A stretch of DNA of 64,000 nucleotides from Intestinimonas butyriciproducens (GTDB taxonomy: Bacteria > Bacillota > Clostridia > Oscillospirales > Oscillospiraceae), in contig NZ_CP011524.1 of assembly GCF_004154955.1 (NCBI RefSeq), positions 2,728,001 to 2,792,000 of the forward strand, read 5' to 3'. Within the stretch, counting starts at the first letter, position 1, and every line of letters starts with the position of its first letter. Under the pieces are notes generated by a model, which had not been told where the DNA came from, ran no database searches, and saw only the letters and a program-made list of their open reading frames with translations. The position numbers and the translations under genes were made by a program. Of this stretch, positions 51,958 through 61,047 are shown in pieces.

Positions 51958-54396
51958 TTACAGCTTTTTGGCGGGTACGTCCCAGATGTTCCGGGCGTAC
52001 TCCCGGATGCTGCGGTCCGCGGCAAAGATGCCGGACCGGGCGATGTTCACCAGCGCCATCCGGTTCCACCGGCCGGGGTCCCGGTAGGTGCGGCCCGCCC
52101 GCTCCTGGGCCTCCCGGTAGCTCTCGAAGTCCGCCAGGAGCATATACTCGTCGGCGGGCCCCCCCTTTCCGAAGAGGAGGCGGTTGGTGACGTCGGCATA
52201 GCCCACCCCGTCGTCAAAGCCGCGGGTAATCTGGTCGATGACCGCCTTGAGAAACTCATCGTGCATGTAGTACTCATAGGAGCGGTAGCCCTTGGCCTTT
52301 TTCTCCGCCACCTCGTTGGCCTTGAGCCCGAAGAGGAAGATATTCTCGTCCCCCACCTGCTGGTGCATCTCCACATTGGCGCCGTCCAGCGTGCCGATGG
52401 TCAGGGCGCCGTTCATCATGAACTTCATGTTGCCGGTGCCGGATGCCTCCTTGCCGGCGGTGGAGATCTGCTCGGAGAGCTCGCTGGCGGGCATGAGCTT
52501 TTCCGCCAGGGAAACCCGGTAGTTCTCCAAAAACACCACCTGGAGCCGGTCCTTGCAGGCCGGGTCGGCGTTCACGGTGGCGGCAAGGGAGTTGATGAGG
52601 TGGATGATCTCCTTGGCCACGGAGTAGCCCGGCGCCGCCTTGGCCCCGAAGAGATAGACCCTGGGGGTAAACTCGAAGTGGGGATCGGCCTTGAGCCGCT
52701 GATAGAGATAGGTGATGTGCATGACATTGAGGAGCTGGCGCTTGTACTCATGCAGGCGCTTCACCTGCACGTCGAATATGGCGTCGGTATTCAGCAGGAC
52801 CCCCGACTCCCGGGCCACATAGCCGGCAAAGCTGCGCTTGTTCTCCGCCTTGATCTCAGCCAGGCGATTGAGCACGCTGGCATCCTCTTTATATCTCTCC
52901 AGTTGGACAAGCTTTTCCGGCTGGAGCAGATAGGAGTCCCCGCCGGCGCACTCCCGGATCAGCGCGTCCAGCTTGGGATTGATCTCGCTGAGCCAGCGGC
53001 GGTGGTCGATGCCGTTCGTCACGTTCTTGAACTTTTCAGGCGTCTGGACATAGACATCATGGAAGGTCTCCCGCTTGAGGATATCCGAGTGGAGCGCGGA
53101 TACGCCGTTCACCGCGAAGCAGGCGCACACACAGAGGTTGGCCATGCGCACCTCTCCGCCCCAGATGACGGCCAGATCCCGCACCTTGGACTGGTCGCCG
53201 TGGAAGTACTCGTTGAGATGCGCCTGATAGCGGTTGCTGATCTCCACCAGGATCTGCCACACCCGGGGCAGCAGGGTCTCTATGAGCTGCTGCGGCCAGC
53301 GCTCCAGGGCCTCCACCATGATGGTATGGTTGGTATAGGCAACAGTATGGGTGACGATGTGCCACGCCTCATCCCAGCCATACCCCTCCTCGTCCAGAAG
53401 GATGCGCATGAGCTCGGGGATGACCAGCGTGGGATGGGTGTCGTTGATCTGGATGACGTGCTTCTGATGGAAATTCCGCAGGGTGCCGTACTCCGCCTTG
53501 TGCTGGCGGCAGATGCACTGGACCGTGGCGGAGACGAAGAAATACTGCTGCTTCAGGCGCAGGGACTTGCCCTCATAGTGGTTGTCCTCGGGATAGAGGA
53601 TCTTGGCAATGGACTCCGCCATGGCCTGCTGCTCCACCGCCTTGAGGTATTCTCCCCGGGAGAAGAGGGACATGTCCAGCGGCGTGGGGCTCTTGGCGTC
53701 CCACAGCCGGAGGACGTTGACATGCTCGGTGCCGTAGCCCGCGATCTCCATATCCTTGGGCACGGCCAGCACATCGCTGCCCCCCACATAGGCGACCCGG
53801 TGGCTGCCGTCCTCGCCCCAGATGTCCCTGACCTCGCCGCCGAAGTGGACCCGCTCGGTCTCATCCACCTTGGGGATCAGCCAGCAGTCGGCCACGTCCA
53901 GCCAGTTGTCCGGAAGCTCCACCTGTTGGCCGTCCACGATCTTCTGTTTGAAGAGGCCCAGCTCATAGCAGATGGAGTAGCCGGTAGCGGGGATCTCCAG
54001 GGTGGTCATGGACTCCAGATAGCAGGCGGCCAGGCGGCCCAGGCCGCCGTTGCCCAGACCCGCGTCGGGCTCCACCTCAAAGAGGTCGGGGGCGGAGAAG
54101 CCCAGGCCCTCGACGGCCTCCTTCAACTGGGGGAGGACCCCCAGGTTATAGGCGTTCTTCTCCAGGGAGCGGCCCATGAGAAACTCCAGGGAGAGGTAGT
54201 GGACCTGGCGGGCGTGGCTGTCCCGGATGCGGCTCTCGGTCTCCAGCTCCCGGGCGGACATAATATCCCGGAGCACCAGGGCGCATGCCCGGAACATGTG
54301 GACAGGGGTGGCCTCTTCCACTTCCCGGCCGAAATTCCGGCGCAGCTTGCCGATAATCTGCTGCTCCAGCTCTTTTTTGGTGTATTTCTTCGCCAT
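51958..54396 (-). CDS. glgP: Glycogen/starch phosphorylase
   Basis: 812 residues of the GT35 family; releases glucose-1-phosphate from alpha-1,4 chains. The N-terminal half shows SLEFLMGRSLEKNAYNLG and EPDAGLGNGGLGRLAACYLES, and the catalytic half DVQVKRLHEYKRQLLNV. The PLP lysine is in ASGTGNMKFMMNGALTIGTLDGANVEM. A GGAG lies 9 nt before the ATG. Last gene of the glycogen cluster, but with its own promoter and a structured leader, so breakdown can be set separately from synthesis. Confidence 0.96.
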   Translation of the reverse strand: MAKKYTKKELEQQIIGKLRRNFGREVEEATPVHMFRACALVLRDIMSARELETESRIRDSHARQVHYLSLEFLMGRSLEKNAYNLGVLPQLKEAVEGLGFSAPDLFEVEPDAGLGNGGLGRLAACYLESMTTLEIPATGYSICYELGLFKQKIVDGQQVELPDNWLDVADCWLIPKVDETERVHFGGEVRDIWGEDGSHRVAYVGGSDVLAVPKDMEIAGYGTEHVNVLRLWDAKSPTPLDMSLFSRGEYLKAVEQQAMAESIAKILYPEDNHYEGKSLRLKQQYFFVSATVQCICRQHKAEYGTLRNFHQKHVIQINDTHPTLVIPELMRILLDEEGYGWDEAWHIVTHTVAYTNHTIMVEALERWPQQLIETLLPRVWQILVEISNRYQAHLNEYFHGDQSKVRDLAVIWGGEVRMANLCVCACFAVNGVSALHSDILKRETFHDVYVQTPEKFKNVTNGIDHRRWLSEINPKLDALIRECAGGDSYLLQPEKLVQLERYKEDASVLNRLAEIKAENKRSFAGYVARESGVLLNTDAIFDVQVKRLHEYKRQLLNVMHITYLYQRLKADPHFEFTPRVYLFGAKAAPGYSVAKEIIHLINSLAATVNADPACKDRLQVVFLENYRVSLAEKLMPASELSEQISTAGKEASGTGNMKFMMNGALTIGTLDGANVEMHQQVGDENIFLFGLKANEVAEKKAKGYRSYEYYMHDEFLKAVIDQITRGFDDGVGYADVTNRLLFGKGGPADEYMLLADFESYREAQERAGRTYRDPGRWNRMALVNIARSGIFAADRSIREYARNIWDVPAKKL

Positions 54397-54534: not shown

Positions 54535-54675
54535 CTAAACATGTGCTTATGGCCCGTTTGAAGATTGAAACCATACCCGGAGCTTGGGGCCCCATCCGTC
54601 GCCGTGGGGCTTTCCCGCCCTCATGCCGTTTTTTCACAGGCCTTCGGGGGAGCCCAGGACCGAGACGTCCGGCGC

Positions 54676-56412
54676 TCAGTCCGCCGGCGTCTCCTTCTTT
54701 TTCCGCGCCGCCGGCTTTTTTGTTCCGGCCGTACCGGCGCCGGAGGACGCTTTTTTCGCGCCGCCGGAGGAGGCAGACTTCCTGGTCGCCGCCTTCCTGA
54801 CCGCGGGCCTCTTCACAGGCGCGGCGGGGGGCTCCTCCGCGGGCGCAGCGGGCACCTCCGGCACAGGCTCTTCCGCGAGCGCGGGCGCGGGATGCTCCTC
54901 CGCCACAGGCGCCTCGTCGGGAATGGGGACCTCCGTCGGTGCAGGCGCCCCGGCGGGGGCGTGGAACTCTGCCTCCGGGCGCGGAATCCCGGTGATCTGG
55001 TAGTACACGCCCTCGTACTCCCGGGCGGGCTCGTTCCAGCTAAAGTCCCGGGTCATGCCGTTATGCTGGAGGCCCCGCCAAGCGCTCTTATCGTTGTAAT
55101 AGAGGTCCACCGCCTCCCCCAGCACCCACACCATGTCGTGGGCGTTGATGTCGGCAAAGGTAAAGCCGTTGTCCCCAAATACCCCGTGGGGGACCACCGT
55201 ATCCTTGAGTCCTCCGGTCTCCCGGACCACCGGTACGGTGCCGTACCGCATGGCGATCATCTGGGAGAGGCCGCAGGGCTCGGAGACGGAGGGCATGAGG
55301 AACAGATCCGCGCCGCCGTAAATGGCGGTGCTGAGAGCGGCGGAATACTGGATGCGGGCAGAGAAGCGGCTGGGATACTGGGCCTCCGCATGGCGGAACG
55401 CCTCCTCAAAATTCCATTCGCCGGTACCCAGCACCACCATCTGCACATCCATATTCATGATCTCTGGGATGGCGGAGGCCACCAGTTCGAAGCCCTTGTG
55501 CCGGACCAGGCGGGAGACGCAGGCGATGATGGGCACATTGGGGTCCTCACGCAGCCCCACCGCCCGCTGCAGCGCGGCCTTGCAGGCGGCCTTCCCACCC
55601 AGATCGTCGGGCGTGAAGGCCGCGGCCAGCCCGGCACCGTTGGAGGGGTCGTAGAGGTCCGCGTCCAGGCCGTTGAGGATGCCCTGCAGCTTCCAGCGGT
55701 TGTCGGCCACCACGCCCTCCAGGCCGTGGGCATAGAAGGGATACTGGAGCTCCTCGGCATAGGTGGGGGAGACCGTGGTCACATAGTCGGCGGCATAAAT
55801 GGCCCCTTTCATCAGATTCACGTCCCCGTGATAGGCCAGCATATGCTCATTCATATACCCGCGGTTCAAACCCAGCAGGTCCTCCAGCACCTGGTCGCCG
55901 TAACGCCCCTGGTACTCGATATTGTGGATGGTGAACACGCTCTTGCTTCCCCGCAACTGCCAGACCCGTTCCCGCTCCTCCAGGAGGTAGATGGGCACCA
56001 GAGCGGTCTGCCAGTCGTTGCAGTGGATGACGTCCGGGTGCCAGTCCAGGTGGGCCGGCGTCTCGACGACGGCACGGGAGAAAAAGGTGAACCGCTCGCC
56101 GTCGTCATAGTGGCCGTAGACCTCGGCGCGTTTGAAATAATATTCGTTGTCCACGAAGAGGTAGGAGATGTTGTCCTCCCGCAGCTCCAGGATGCCGCAG
56201 TAGGGCGTCCGCCAGGCCACCCGGCAGTTCCAGTGGCACAGGAGCTTCATTTTCTCCCGGTACTGCTGCGCCACGCCCTCATAGAGCGGGAGGATCACCT
56301 TTACGTCGTGTCCCATTTCGGCCAGCTTTTTGGGCAGGGAGCCGGCCACATCGGCCAGGCCGCCGGTCTTGATAAAAGGGGCTACCTCGGAAGAGGCGAA
56401 CAGAATATTCAT
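54676..56412 (-). CDS. glgA: Glycogen synthase with a disordered Pro/Ala/Glu-Lys tail
   Basis: 578 residues. The GT5 synthase occupies about 1-482: KTGGLADVAGSLPKKLAEMGHDV (ADP-glucose site), WQTALVPIYLL, VSRLVRHKGFELV and PSVSEPCGLSQMIAMRYGTVPVVRETGGLKDTV. It adds glucose from ADP-glucose to glycogen. About 95 extra residues follow: an acidic Pro/Ala/Glu part (PAGAPAPTEVPIPDEAPVAEE ...) and then a basic histone-H1-like part (PVKRPAVRKAATRKSASSGG ... KKPAARKKKETPAD). GlgA proteins usually end near 477-480, so the tail is an addition. AAGGAG precedes the ATG. Confidence 0.95.
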   Translation of the reverse strand: MNILFASSEVAPFIKTGGLADVAGSLPKKLAEMGHDVKVILPLYEGVAQQYREKMKLLCHWNCRVAWRTPYCGILELREDNISYLFVDNEYYFKRAEVYGHYDDGERFTFFSRAVVETPAHLDWHPDVIHCNDWQTALVPIYLLEERERVWQLRGSKSVFTIHNIEYQGRYGDQVLEDLLGLNRGYMNEHMLAYHGDVNLMKGAIYAADYVTTVSPTYAEELQYPFYAHGLEGVVADNRWKLQGILNGLDADLYDPSNGAGLAAAFTPDDLGGKAACKAALQRAVGLREDPNVPIIACVSRLVRHKGFELVASAIPEIMNMDVQMVVLGTGEWNFEEAFRHAEAQYPSRFSARIQYSAALSTAIYGGADLFLMPSVSEPCGLSQMIAMRYGTVPVVRETGGLKDTVVPHGVFGDNGFTFADINAHDMVWVLGEAVDLYYNDKSAWRGLQHNGMTRDFSWNEPAREYEGVYYQITGIPRPEAEFHAPAGAPAPTEVPIPDEAPVAEEHPAPALAEEPVPEVPAAPAEEPPAAPVKRPAVRKAATRKSASSGGAKKASSGAGTAGTKKPAARKKKETPAD

Positions 56413-56450
56413 ACTTGTCTCCTTTTCATATTCTCAGGGGTGATACACCG

Positions 56451-56494
56451 CGCGGCCGCCATATACGGGCCCTCCGCCCCATATGGCGGCCGCG
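56451..56494 (-). repeat. 14-bp perfect hairpin between glgD and glgA
   Basis: Arms 56451-56464 and 56481-56494 (CGCGGCCGCCATAT and complement) around a 16-nt loop, in the 141-bp gap. No T-run follows on the minus strand. It may stabilise the upstream mRNA or attenuate transcription into glgA. Confidence 0.65.
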
Positions 56495-56553
56495 TCCTTG
56501 TGCCGCTCCGGGACCCGCGCGGCCCCACGGCGGCGCCCGGTCCCTTTGTTATA

Positions 56554-57672
56554 CTATACCACGGCGTTTTTTGCAATCGCCAGCGGGTAGGTCTCGTGAC
56601 CCATCAGCATCCGCCCGGCGTTCACCTGCACGTTCTTGTCGGTGATGGCGTATTTGAGGGTGGCGCCCTGCTGGATGACCGTGCCCTGCATCAGGATGCA
56701 GTTTTGTACCTTGGCACCCTTCTCCACACGGACGCCGCGGAAGAGGATCGAGTTTTCCACCTCGCCCTCGATGATGCAGCCGTCGGCCACCAGGGAGCTT
56801 TTGGACTTGGAGAGAGGGCCGTAATAGGTGGAGGGATTGGACATGTCCTTGGTCTTGACCGGACGCATAGGATTGAAGAGATCGGCCCGCACCGCCGGGT
56901 CCAGCAGTTCCATACTCCGGGCGTAATAGCCCGCCACGGACTGGAGCCGGGCGGCATAGCCCTCAAAGCAATAGGACATGATCTTGAGCCGGCCGCCCAT
57001 ATTGAGGAGCACGCCCTGGCTGAAGGAGGGGATATTATGGGCGATGCAGTACTCCACCAGGGAGATGAGCAGATCCTTCGACATGATGTACACCTCCATG
57101 GATTCGCAGCCCATGGGGTTGATGGGGTGGACGGAGACGTCGGTGATGACGCTGTTCTCATCCACGGTGAAGTAATCGGAGCTTCTGGGATCGCCCCTGG
57201 GGACGGGGGTGCAGACGGCGGTAATGTCCGCCCCGGTGCGCAGGTGCTGCTCAAAGACATCGTCCAGATCCAGGTTCACCGCCACATCGCCGCCGGAGAG
57301 GACCACATAGTCCTGACGGATACGCTCCAGGTAGGAATAGACACCGGCCAGGGCGTCCATACGCCCCCGGTATTCGCCCTCCCGCCGCTTGTCGGCATAG
57401 CCGAAGGGGGGCAGTATCCGCAGACCGCCGTGCTTCCGGGAGAGGTCCCAGTCCTTGCCGGAGCCCACGTGGTCCAGCAGAGACTGATAATTGGCGTGGA
57501 CGATGAGTCCCACATCGGAGATGCCGGCATTTACCATATTGGAGAGCATGAAATCCACGATGCGGTAGCGCCCGCCATAGGGGATGGAGCAGGTATTCCG
57601 GTGCTGGGAGAGCTCCCGGAGCTGCGGATTGGAGCGGTAGGCAAAGATGATCCCGTGCAGCTTGTTGGTCAT
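56554..57672 (-). CDS. glgD: GlgD subunit of glucose-1-phosphate adenylyltransferase
   Basis: 372 residues. Nucleotidyltransferase-like domain ([42 protein letters not shown]) lacking the GGxGxRL nucleotide loop of GlgC, then hexapeptide repeats ([29 protein letters not shown]). In Firmicutes GlgD is the non- or weakly catalytic partner that raises GlgC activity. It overlaps glgC by 4 bp, so the subunits are made together. Confidence 0.95.
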
Positions 57673-58886
57673 TTCACCGCACCCCCTTTCACATTCCGGG
57701 TGATCATGGCCTTGGGGGGTACCACGGCCTTGTCCCCCACCTTGATCCCCTCGGCTACCACGGCGATGCCCCAGTCGTCAGGGGCGCCTTCCCCCTCCGG
57801 CGGCGCGCCCACCTTGGCCTCGGCGCCGATGACGGCGTTTTCCGCCACAATGGCGTACTCCACCGCGGCGCCTTCCCGCACCACCGCGCCGGGCATCAGG
57901 ATGGAGTAGCGGACACTGGCCCCCTTCTCCACCTTGACCGAGTGGAAGAGCACCGAATTCTCCACCGTGCCGTCCACCTCACAGCCGCCGGTGACCAGAG
58001 AGTGGCTGACCACCGCGTCGGGGCCGGTAAAGTGAGGCGGGCGCGTGGGCGTGCGGGCATAGATGGGCCACTCCGTATCATAGAGATTGAAGCCGCTGTG
58101 GACGGAGAGCATATCCATATTGGCGTCCCACAGGGAGTCGATGGTGCCCACGTCCTTCCAGTAGCCCTCAAAGCGGTAGGCAGCCATCCGCTCCCCCTTC
58201 TCCAGCATGGCGGGGATGATGTTCTTTCCAAAGTCGTTGCTGGACTTCTCATCCGCCTCGTCCGCCACCAGATACTCCCGGAGCTGTTTCCAATTGAAGA
58301 TGTAAATGCCCATAGAGGCGAGGTTGCTCTTGGGCCGCTTAGGCTTCTCCTCGAATTCATAGATCATGTCGTGCTCGTCCACATTCATGATGCCGAACCG
58401 GGAGGCCTCCTCCATGGGGACTTCCATGACGGAGATGGTACAGGCGGCGTCCATGGCCTTGTGATGCTCAAGCATCTTCTCATAATCCATCTTATAGATG
58501 TGGTCGCCGGAGAGAATGAGCACATAGTCCGGGTCATAGAGCTGGATAAAGCCGATATTCTGATAGATGGCGTTGGCGGTGCCCTTGTACCAGGTGCCCT
58601 TGTCCCCCTCCTTCACATAGGGGGGCAGGATATGGACGCCCCCGTCCGACCGGTCCAGGTCCCAGGGCTGTCCGTTTCCAATGTAGCCGTTGAGCTCCAG
58701 CGGCTGATACTGGGTAAGCACTCCCACCGTGTCGATGCCGGAGTTAACGCAGTTGCTCAGGGGGAAATCGATGATGCGGAATTTTCCCCCGAAGGGGACG
58801 GCTGGCTTTGCCACCCTGGACGTCAAGGCCCGCAGGCGGCTTCCCTGGCCGCCTGCCAGCAGCATGGCGACGCATTCTTTCTTCAT
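57669..58886 (-). CDS. glgC: Glucose-1-phosphate adenylyltransferase
   Basis: 405 residues; makes ADP-glucose from ATP and glucose-1-phosphate, the controlled step of glycogen synthesis. [15 protein letters not shown] nucleotide loop, [35 protein letters not shown] and the C-terminal left-handed helix. I chose the ATG at 58886 (MKKECVAML) because AGAGGTG lies 9 nt upstream; a GTG four codons earlier sits on that RBS. The enzyme probably works as a complex with GlgD. Confidence 0.95.
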
Positions 58887-58947
58887 CTTATCGAACACCT
58901 CTCTCGCTTTGAAGTGAAACTTGGACGATGGGATGGTCCGCGCCGCA

Positions 58948-61047
58948 CTACGGCTGTTCCTTCTTGACGGCCGGCTTGGGGGATTTCGGCTTCACCATCG
59001 GATACCTGGCCTTTTCCTTGACCGCGGGATGGGAGGCTCCGGCCTTGACGGCCGGCTTGGCCGCCTTCTTCTTCACGGCTGGCTTGGCTGCGGACTTGAC
59101 CGCCAGCGCAGAGGTTCCCTTCCTTCTCCTGGGCGGGAACTTCCGGGTGCACTTGTAAATGACCGCGCTCATGGGGGGCAGGGTGATCACGATGGACTGT
59201 TCTCTGCCGTGGCAGGGGATATACTGGCTCTTTACGGCCTCGCGATCCCCCCGGCCCTCGCCTCCAAACGCCGGATCGTCGGTGTTGAACAGGCAGGTAT
59301 ACGCGCCCGCCGCCGGCACGCCCACACAGTAGCCCGTCCGATCTACAGGCGAGAAGTTGCACACCACCACCAGCGCGTTCCCCTTCTTATCCCTGCGGAG
59401 GAAGGAAATGGTGTTGGCCTGGCTGTCATCGGCATAAATCCACTCAAAGCCCTCCCAGGAGAAATCCTCCTCCCACAGCGGGGCCTGCGCCAAATAAAAG
59501 TGGTTGGCCGCCTGGAAGAAGGCCTGGGTCTTGCGGTTAATCTCATTGTCCAGCAGGTGCCAGTCCAGTGAATATTCAAAGTGCCACTCGTTCCACTGTC
59601 CAAACTCGCTGCCCATCATCAGCAGCTTTTTGCCCGGATGGGTGAGCATGTAGGCATAAAAGGCCCGCACACCGGCGAACTTCTCCTCATAGCTCCCCGG
59701 CATCTTGTTGAGGAGCGAGCCCTTCATGTGCACCACCTCGTCGTGGGAAAGGGGCAGGATAAAGTTTTCGGAAAAGGCGTACAGGAACGAAAAGGTGATA
59801 TCCTTATGGTTGAACTGGCGGAAGTAGGGGTCCATCTTCATATAGTGGAGGACATCGTTCATCCATCCCATGTTCCACTTCAGGTTGAAGCCCAGGCCGC
59901 CTTCAGAGACCGGATGAGATACCTTGGGCCAGGCGGTGGACTCCTCCGCGACCATCAGCACATCGTCATGGGCGGCGAAGACCCGCTCATTGAGCTTCTG
60001 CAGGAAATCCACGGCCTCCAGGTTCTCATTGCCGCCGTGGATATTGCGGACCCACGCTCCGTCCTTGCGGCCATAGTCAAGATACAGCATGGAGGCTACG
60101 GCGTCTACCCTCAATCCGTCGATGTGAAACATTTCCAGCCAGAAGAGGGCCGAAGAGTAGAGAAAGGAGCGGACTTCGTTCCTCCCATAGTCAAAGACAC
60201 GGGTACCCCAGTCGGCGTGTTCTCCCTTGCGCAGATCGGCATATTCATAGCAGGGCTGTCCGTCAAACTCATAGAGTCCGAAGGCGTCCTTCGGGAAGTG
60301 GGCGGGTACCCAGTCCAGAATCACGCCCACACCGGCCTGGTGGAGCTGGTCGATGAGATACATCAGGTCGTCGGGTGTGCCAAAGCGGCTGGTGGCCGCA
60401 AAATACCCGGTACACTGATAGCCCCAGGAGTCGTCCAGCGGATGCTCGGTGATGGGCAACAGCTCCACATGGGTAAAACCCATCTCCTTTACATATGGGA
60501 CCAGGTATTGAGCAATGTCCCGATAGGAGAGGAACTCCCCCTCCCCTGTTCTGCGCCAAGACCCCAAATGGATCTCATAGATATTCAGCGGTCTGTGGTA
60601 GACCGGGTTGTTCTTCCGGTACTCCAGCCAGGCCCTGTCCCCCCACCGGTATTCCCCCAGCTCATAGAGCTTGGAGGCCGTGCCGGGCCGGGTCTCGGCG
60701 TGGAAGGCGTAGGGATCGGCCTTGAGAAGGACGCGCCCGTCCGCAGCTTCCACCGCATACTTATAGATGTCATACCGCTGGAGCCCAGGCACAAAGGCCT
60801 CCCAGATTCCCCCGCCCAGCAGGTGCATGGGGCCCCGCTCCGCCTCCCAGCCGTTGAAGTCCCCCACTACCGACACCTTTGCCGCATGGGGCGCCCAGAC
60901 CCGGAACACATAGCCCGGGATGCCTTCACGCTCCTCCTGATGGGAACCCATGTACTCCCACGCCCGAAGGGCCTCTCCGGCGGCATACTCCTTTATCATT
61001 TGCTCCGTCCGGCTGTCCGCCGGAGGGTACTTTTTTGGGCTTTCCAT
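58948..61047 (-). CDS. glgB: 1,4-alpha-glucan branching enzyme with a repetitive Lys/Ala/Pro tail
   Basis: 699 residues. CBM48 at about 45-130 ([29 protein letters not shown]). GH13 barrel with [16 protein letters not shown] (nucleophile Asp), [10 protein letters not shown] (acid Glu) and [10 protein letters not shown]. Beta-sandwich end near 637 ([13 protein letters not shown]). A basic tail of about 60 residues follows, with five tandem 9-residue repeats ([45 protein letters not shown]). It makes alpha-1,6 branches. First gene of glgB-C-D-A-P, behind a consensus promoter. The tail is not part of the usual enzyme. Confidence 0.96.
58957..59091 (-). repeat. Five 27-bp tandem coding repeats in the glgB 3' end
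   Basis: Encodes five copies of a 9-residue unit (x-x-[KHY]-P-[AM]-V-K-x-x). The pattern is stronger in protein than in DNA, so it is under protein-level selection or old. Confidence 0.85.

Follow-up and report, generated by a model that had tools for sequence, protein, structure and literature searches.

Why should a glycogen branching enzyme end in a basic, histone H1-like tail? This question is raised by the glg operon found in the stretch of DNA that we analyzed (64,000 nucleotides in full length, hereafter the window). On the minus strand the gene order is glgB, glgC, glgD, glgA and glgP. We used family models to check the identities of GlgB and GlgA, while glgC, glgD and glgP are presumably what their names say, judging from the usual glg order and the sequence.

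58948..61047, minus strand: glgB, GH13 1,4-alpha-glucan branching enzyme of 699 amino acids (CBM48, alpha-amylase and Alpha-amylase_C domains, then the tail)
57669..58898, minus strand: glgC, operon neighbour without a basic tail, used as control (named by gene order and sequence)
56554..57672, minus strand: glgD, operon neighbour without a basic tail, used as control (named by gene order and sequence)
54676..56412, minus strand: glgA, glycogen synthase (family model)
51958..54396, minus strand: glgP, operon neighbour without a basic tail (named by gene order and sequence)

An open frame of 1114 amino acids lies antisense to the glg genes (54565-57909, plus strand) and is probably a by-product of high G+C.

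GlgB of the window is an equivalog-scoring GH13 branching enzyme. The equivalog family model NF008967 matched residues 13-635 (924.6 bits, cut-off 577), and the CBM48, alpha-amylase and C-terminal beta domains were all present, the last being Pfam Alpha-amylase_C at residues 536-633. In the AlphaFold2 model, built on 26 aligned sequences, the last strand stopped at residue 636 and pLDDT was below 50 across residues 645-699. This agrees with the preliminary description of the locus, which had put the normal end of the enzyme near residue 637. What follows is the tail:

58951..59136, minus strand: C-terminal GlgB tail, residues 638-699 (62 residues), net charge +17, delimited by the strand end at 636 and by pLDDT <50 for 645-699
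58957..59091, minus strand: array of five 9-residue units, residues 653-697, consensus (A)(A/P)KPAV[KR]xx
59065..59091, minus strand: unit 1, AAKPAVKKK
59038..59064, minus strand: unit 2, AAKPAVKAG
59011..59037, minus strand: unit 3, ASHPAVKEK
58984..59010, minus strand: unit 4, ARYPMVKPK
58957..58983, minus strand: unit 5, SPKPAVKKE

Residues 635-699 (635-637 are RKF) contained 16 K, 5 R, 13 A and 10 P, and a total of 2 acidic residues (D plus E). We tested lags 2-30 on the 65 residues from 635 onwards. Lag 9 scored best: 22 positions matched, whereas shuffled sequences averaged 7.5 (family-wise p = 0.0005, the lowest value that 2000 shuffles can give). Thus an H1-like polycationic tail of about 60 residues, predicted to be disordered, with five in-register 9-residue repeats whose units are as first described, is confirmed as a real observation. 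A degenerate unit, LAVK, stood 8 rather than 9 residues ahead of the first PAVK, and such a unit preceded the array in 9 of 11 proteins of the genus.

The repeat is not a tandem array at the DNA level. Tandem Repeats Finder (minimum score 30) reported none over the tail repeats, the units shared 13-20 of 27 nucleotides in pairwise comparison, and the same residue was often encoded by different codons. It is thus at the protein level that the repeat is kept. Three other origins were considered and rejected. A genome-wide repeat family was rejected as the tail query matched itself only; the KPAV pattern searched in DNA gave 12 sites, 3 of them inside glgB, and its reversed control gave 10, which means no enrichment of the motif by itself. 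A phage source was rejected as the tail of L027, a GlgB from another genus (g23), had no match (BLAST with the low-complexity filter on). Finally, none of the four tails searched alone against Pfam-A belonged to a known family at the cut-off: up to E = 1 the GlgB and GlgA tails of the window and the L080 tail (Faecalibacterium) had no match, and L027 had one weak match below the cut-off (DUF4106, E 0.7).

We then compared close relatives, in which the tail could be expected to persist together with its 9-residue period if it matters. The basic tail (length of at least 15 residues, net charge of at least +5; the criterion of our genus and tail survey) was found in every one of the 11 genomes that we searched from the genus of the window. 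The PAV[KR] array was present in 10 of the 11, L009 being the one without it, and also in three GlgBs of genus g23 (L027, L028 and L030) at a core identity of 73%. Across these 13 proteins, with 5 to 9 PAV units each, 69 of 69 successive PAV spacings equalled 9, so that both the tail and its period are kept. Among 83 units, position 4 was P in 83, position 5 was A in 78, position 6 was V in 75 and position 7 was K or R in 82, a conservation which is partly by construction since the motif itself served to locate the units at the ends of the arrays. Codons varied at the conserved positions.

The type of selection was assessed in ten pairs formed by five genus GlgBs with tails of equal length; the tail of the window has another length and was not among the five. 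Tail dN/dS was 0.08-0.22, while for the preceding 220 residues it was 0.05-0.22. The low values suggest purifying selection in these relatives. In each of the ten pairs dN was higher for the tail than for the core, therefore the tail evolves faster than the enzyme; judged by these substitution rates, it is constrained and yet faster-changing. One might read the tail as low-complexity sequence that expanded neutrally because the C-terminus tolerates it. The variable copy number, the kinds of repeat that differ between lineages and the raised dN would fit such a reading. We consider it highly improbable, because dN/dS is low, unit positions stay conserved while codons vary, the register is kept in all 13 proteins, and the tail is confined to GlgB when compared with GlgC and GlgD (see below).

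The preliminary description knew of no such tail on GlgB, and in this it was too narrow: basic low-complexity tails of other sequence occur widely. Of 275 distinct GlgB cores, 133 carried such a tail and 142 did not by the same criterion (net charge of at least +5 in a window of 15-20 amino acids, applied also to the operon partners and to the tree). By sample, tails were present in 9/9 GlgBs of the genus, 51/105 of the family, 52/77 of the named relatives and 21/84 of the phylum. The named relatives were the best 80 of 596 loci, and this sample therefore leans to close relatives. The family sample took 80 matches beyond the returned loci and left out the remainder, which was mostly lower-scoring. 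For the phylum, 60 regions were chosen from the matches and others were passed over; 5 of the 60 were second copies. Incomplete GlgBs (L010, L011, L064 and L087) were excluded, the five second copies were tallied separately, and identical cores and cores shorter than 400 amino acids were left out of the 275 tree rows. To our knowledge, GlgB of E. coli has no such tail.

Tail sequences differed by lineage while the basic character recurred. Flavonifractor sp. An10 (L055) had another 9-mer repeat, two Faecalibacterium GlgBs (L080 and L082) had AT-hook-like KKRGRKPKAE, and the tails of Anaerovibrio (L126 and L127) were approximately 200 residues long. GlgB of an uncultured Ruminococcus (L123) ended in a 265-residue tail whose 12-residue repeat units have mixed charge (KEEVKAAPKAEV). 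One of the five second GH13 copies (L309) had a basic tail by the criterion of length of at least 15 and net charge of at least +5; this copy, at 38% identity, bears a charged extension of 123 amino acids which is K-rich at its end. On the GlgB tree (FastTree) the basic-tail trait required at least 38 changes, whereas 100 shuffles of the labels averaged 91.6 and never fell below 78. On this tree the tail is thus inherited in clades but often changed, that is, labile. PAV arrays of period 9 (11 rows) needed two changes. AT-hooks, counted over all 275 tails, basic or otherwise, were found in 16 tails and needed at least 9 changes with gains and losses pooled.

Turnover of the sequence with return of the basic character would fit a charged entropic bristle, which would need no specific partner and would keep GlgB soluble in dense glucan or tune how it reaches the chains. 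Such a bristle should not require PAV[KR] at each ninth residue or AT-hook-like cores, and in these loci GlgC and GlgD do without a tail. For these reasons we regard this explanation as improbable.

The comparison with operon partners drew on the 79 loci in which GlgB was complete. Counts of basic tails were GlgB 53/79, GlgC 0/71, GlgD 0/68, GlgA 4/66 and GlgP 1/27. The contrast between GlgB and GlgC/GlgD was strong (Fisher p = 2.5e-31, with loci treated as independent despite their kinship). Where a locus had GlgC as well as GlgB (71 loci), the tail was on GlgB alone in 46 and on GlgC alone in 0. We also applied a stricter criterion to open reading frames in general (net charge of at least +6 in a window of 25 amino acids). 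In the named loci (best 80 of 596) it selected 12 of 878 other frames versus 40 of 75 GlgBs; the 12 included two GlgAs (L054 and L117) and one GlgP (L100). In L100 a short K-rich tail is on GlgP rather than on GlgB. In the window 3 of 52 mechanical frames qualified, GlgB among the three, and in a 400 kb sample of the genome 10 of 336, most of which look like spurious frames. These control frames were called mechanically, without overlap and longest first, so that antisense frames enter and displace glgA, glgC and glgD of the window. With such low counts we rejected the tail as a general habit of proteins of this genome. A trade-off, with GlgA carrying the tail where GlgB does not, was rejected as well (0/23).

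It had been suggested at first that the tail may dock to an acidic stretch of GlgA. The last approximately 100 residues of GlgA in the window do form an acidic Pro-rich block (net -12), followed by a basic block (net +12) with one KRPAVRKAA. Complete charged tails of 101-170 amino acids were present in 10 of 11 GlgAs of the genus, the eleventh being cut by the end of the locus. They were rich in Pro, Ala and Lys, and some had repeats of the KKPAAKKAA type (L312-L320 included). Both the split charge and the long tails would suit an electrostatic scaffold, in which mutual attraction between the acidic GlgA block and the cationic tail of GlgB would give an assembly of synthase and branching enzyme, or a coacervate. 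Three observations argue against it. Genus g23 has the PAV array on GlgB, yet GlgA of the two g23 genomes examined (L328 and L329) is tail-less; a basic tail was found in just 4 of 43 GlgAs adjoining a tailed GlgB; and 5 of 10 complete GlgA tails of the genus start (first 50 residues) with a net charge of zero or above. Other GlgAs of the family (L323-L350) ended no more than 4 residues past the core in 24 of 28. As the two g23 GlgAs are tail-less and few GlgAs (4/43, or 4/66 over all loci) have a basic tail, docking to GlgA is not the general reason for the tail, and we judge the scaffold quite improbable. Since GlgAs of the genus also bear long charged tails, contact between GlgA and GlgB is possible within the genus of the window, as far as sequences can tell.

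Two side observations concern GlgA. Its tails in L054, L065 and L117 have a basic stretch, and the AT-hook-like core KKRGRKPG occurs in two of them (L065 and L117). In G083, G050, G025, G115, G103 and G076 the GlgA matches lie inside open frames of 1109-1336 amino acids, in which GlgA may be fused to a second enzyme.

What might the tail bind, then? AT-hook-like cores are DNA minor-groove motifs. The core [PKR]GR[PK][PKR] was found in 13 of 131 basic tails (length of at least 15, net charge of at least +5), whereas 1000 shuffles gave a mean of 1.09 and a maximum of 5. Of five AT-hook patterns tried, four beat every shuffle, with the limit that related tails are not independent; GRP[RK], with 5 tails and a shuffle mean of 0.63, was not above its shuffle maximum of 6. 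The GlgB tail of the window itself had no AT-hook-like core. The 131 tails consisted of 25.9% K, 20.1% A, 9.1% T and 8.1% P, with a K:R ratio of 3.5, a composition which is H1-like by its resemblance to H1 as described for AlgP (PMC9239181). The H1-like composition, the AT-hook-like cores and the published granule proteins with such tails all point to nucleic acid. Of the partners named in the preliminary description, nucleic acid is thus favoured by the cores in the tails of relatives and by analogy with published tethers, while GlgA as a general partner is not.

Sequence cannot separate DNA from RNA, ribosomes or polyphosphate as the partner. The tail could bind these other polyanions and act like a surfactant where glycogen condensates face the cytoplasm, away from the chromosome. 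Charge and composition alone would permit this, and 118 of the 131 basic tails have no AT-hook-like core. In E. coli, glycogen condensates keep out proteins, ribosomes and the nucleoid, and glycogen flanks ribosome-rich bands (PMC12706056); because the nucleoid is excluded, glycogen does not touch DNA by default. Against this explanation, AT-hook-like cores are enriched in the tails of relatives, and no observation favours RNA in particular. We consider it unlikely.

The reading we prefer is that a single GlgB chain serves both as branching enzyme and as granule tether, with the tail on a polyanion, most likely nucleoid DNA. We give it a probability of roughly 0.4. It is drawn from the pointers to nucleic acid and from the position of the tail on the enzyme acting at the particle itself, not on GlgC and GlgD, whose product is the soluble precursor of glycogen. 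The folded core (CBM48 and GH13) would sit on the growing glycogen particle, as is implied by the enzyme class and the domains found. The disordered tail of net charge +17 would bind the polyanion, most likely nucleoid DNA, without sequence specificity. Enzyme and particle would thereby be held at the boundary between glycogen and nucleoid, and tethered particles could be spread and shared out instead of coalescing. Both DNA binding and the effect on granule placement are what we infer for this tail.

Extended to many Oscillospiraceae and other Clostridia, the tether would mean that the branching enzyme itself attaches glycogen to the chromosome, via unrelated H1-like or AT-hook-like tails that arose repeatedly. 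We put this forward tentatively. If true, glycogen would join PHA and polyphosphate as the third storage polymer positioned with the help of a histone-like tail. Scaffolds for carboxysomes, magnetosomes, PHB and polyphosphate granules are tabulated in a 2025 review of how bacteria position their organelles, whose main text does not contain the word glycogen (PMC13052382); the GlgB tail is a candidate tether for this polymer. Among the literature matches listed (titles and abstract openings, with few subscription papers) no basic C-terminal tail of GlgB was described. Nor was a GlgB tail described in the available text of work on GlgB N-termini (the word tail occurring 0 times) or of a review of alpha-glucan enzymes, and binding by any GlgB tail was not found in the sources consulted. 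GlgB expressed without its tail may miss a property kept by many lineages.

The comparison with known systems begins with the GH13-family GlgBs themselves (NF008967), which have the whole folded core in common with GlgB of the window, while its tail lies outside the matched stretch. The nearest counterparts of the tail are on other granules. PhaF, the PHA phasin of Pseudomonas putida, has like GlgB a disordered basic C-terminal domain with repeats; N-terminal to this domain is its granule-binding part, a role that the folded core would have in GlgB. It differs in that its repeats are of 4 and 5 residues, it is a phasin and not an enzyme, and its polymer is PHA and not glycogen; its DNA binding has been reported, whereas that of GlgB is a proposal (PMC3574117). 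AlgP of Pseudomonas aeruginosa shares with GlgB an H1-like K/P/A repeat tail, with KPAV among its unit variants, and its DNA-binding C-terminal domain is required for normal number and spacing of polyphosphate granules. Unlike GlgB, it has KPAA repeats of period 4 and a predicted helical N-terminal domain which is not an enzyme, and it belongs to polyphosphate granules (PMC9239181). GlgB of the window has the disordered (as predicted), K/A/P-rich basic tail typical of PhaF and AlgP; its lag of 9 and its PAV[KR] units depart from their KPAA-type repeats of period 4-5, and because of this difference in period we do not class it with them. By analogy, the GlgB tail may still work as their tails do.

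PhaM of the PHB granules of Cupriavidus necator has a histone-like C-terminal DNA-binding domain, and it forms complexes with the polymer synthase and activates it. The histone-like C-terminal domains of PhaF and PhaM bind DNA and fix PHA and PHB granules to the nucleoid (PMC3574117, PMC13052382). PhaM thus couples enzyme and tether, but as a protein separate from the synthase, while in GlgB the tail is part of the enzyme.
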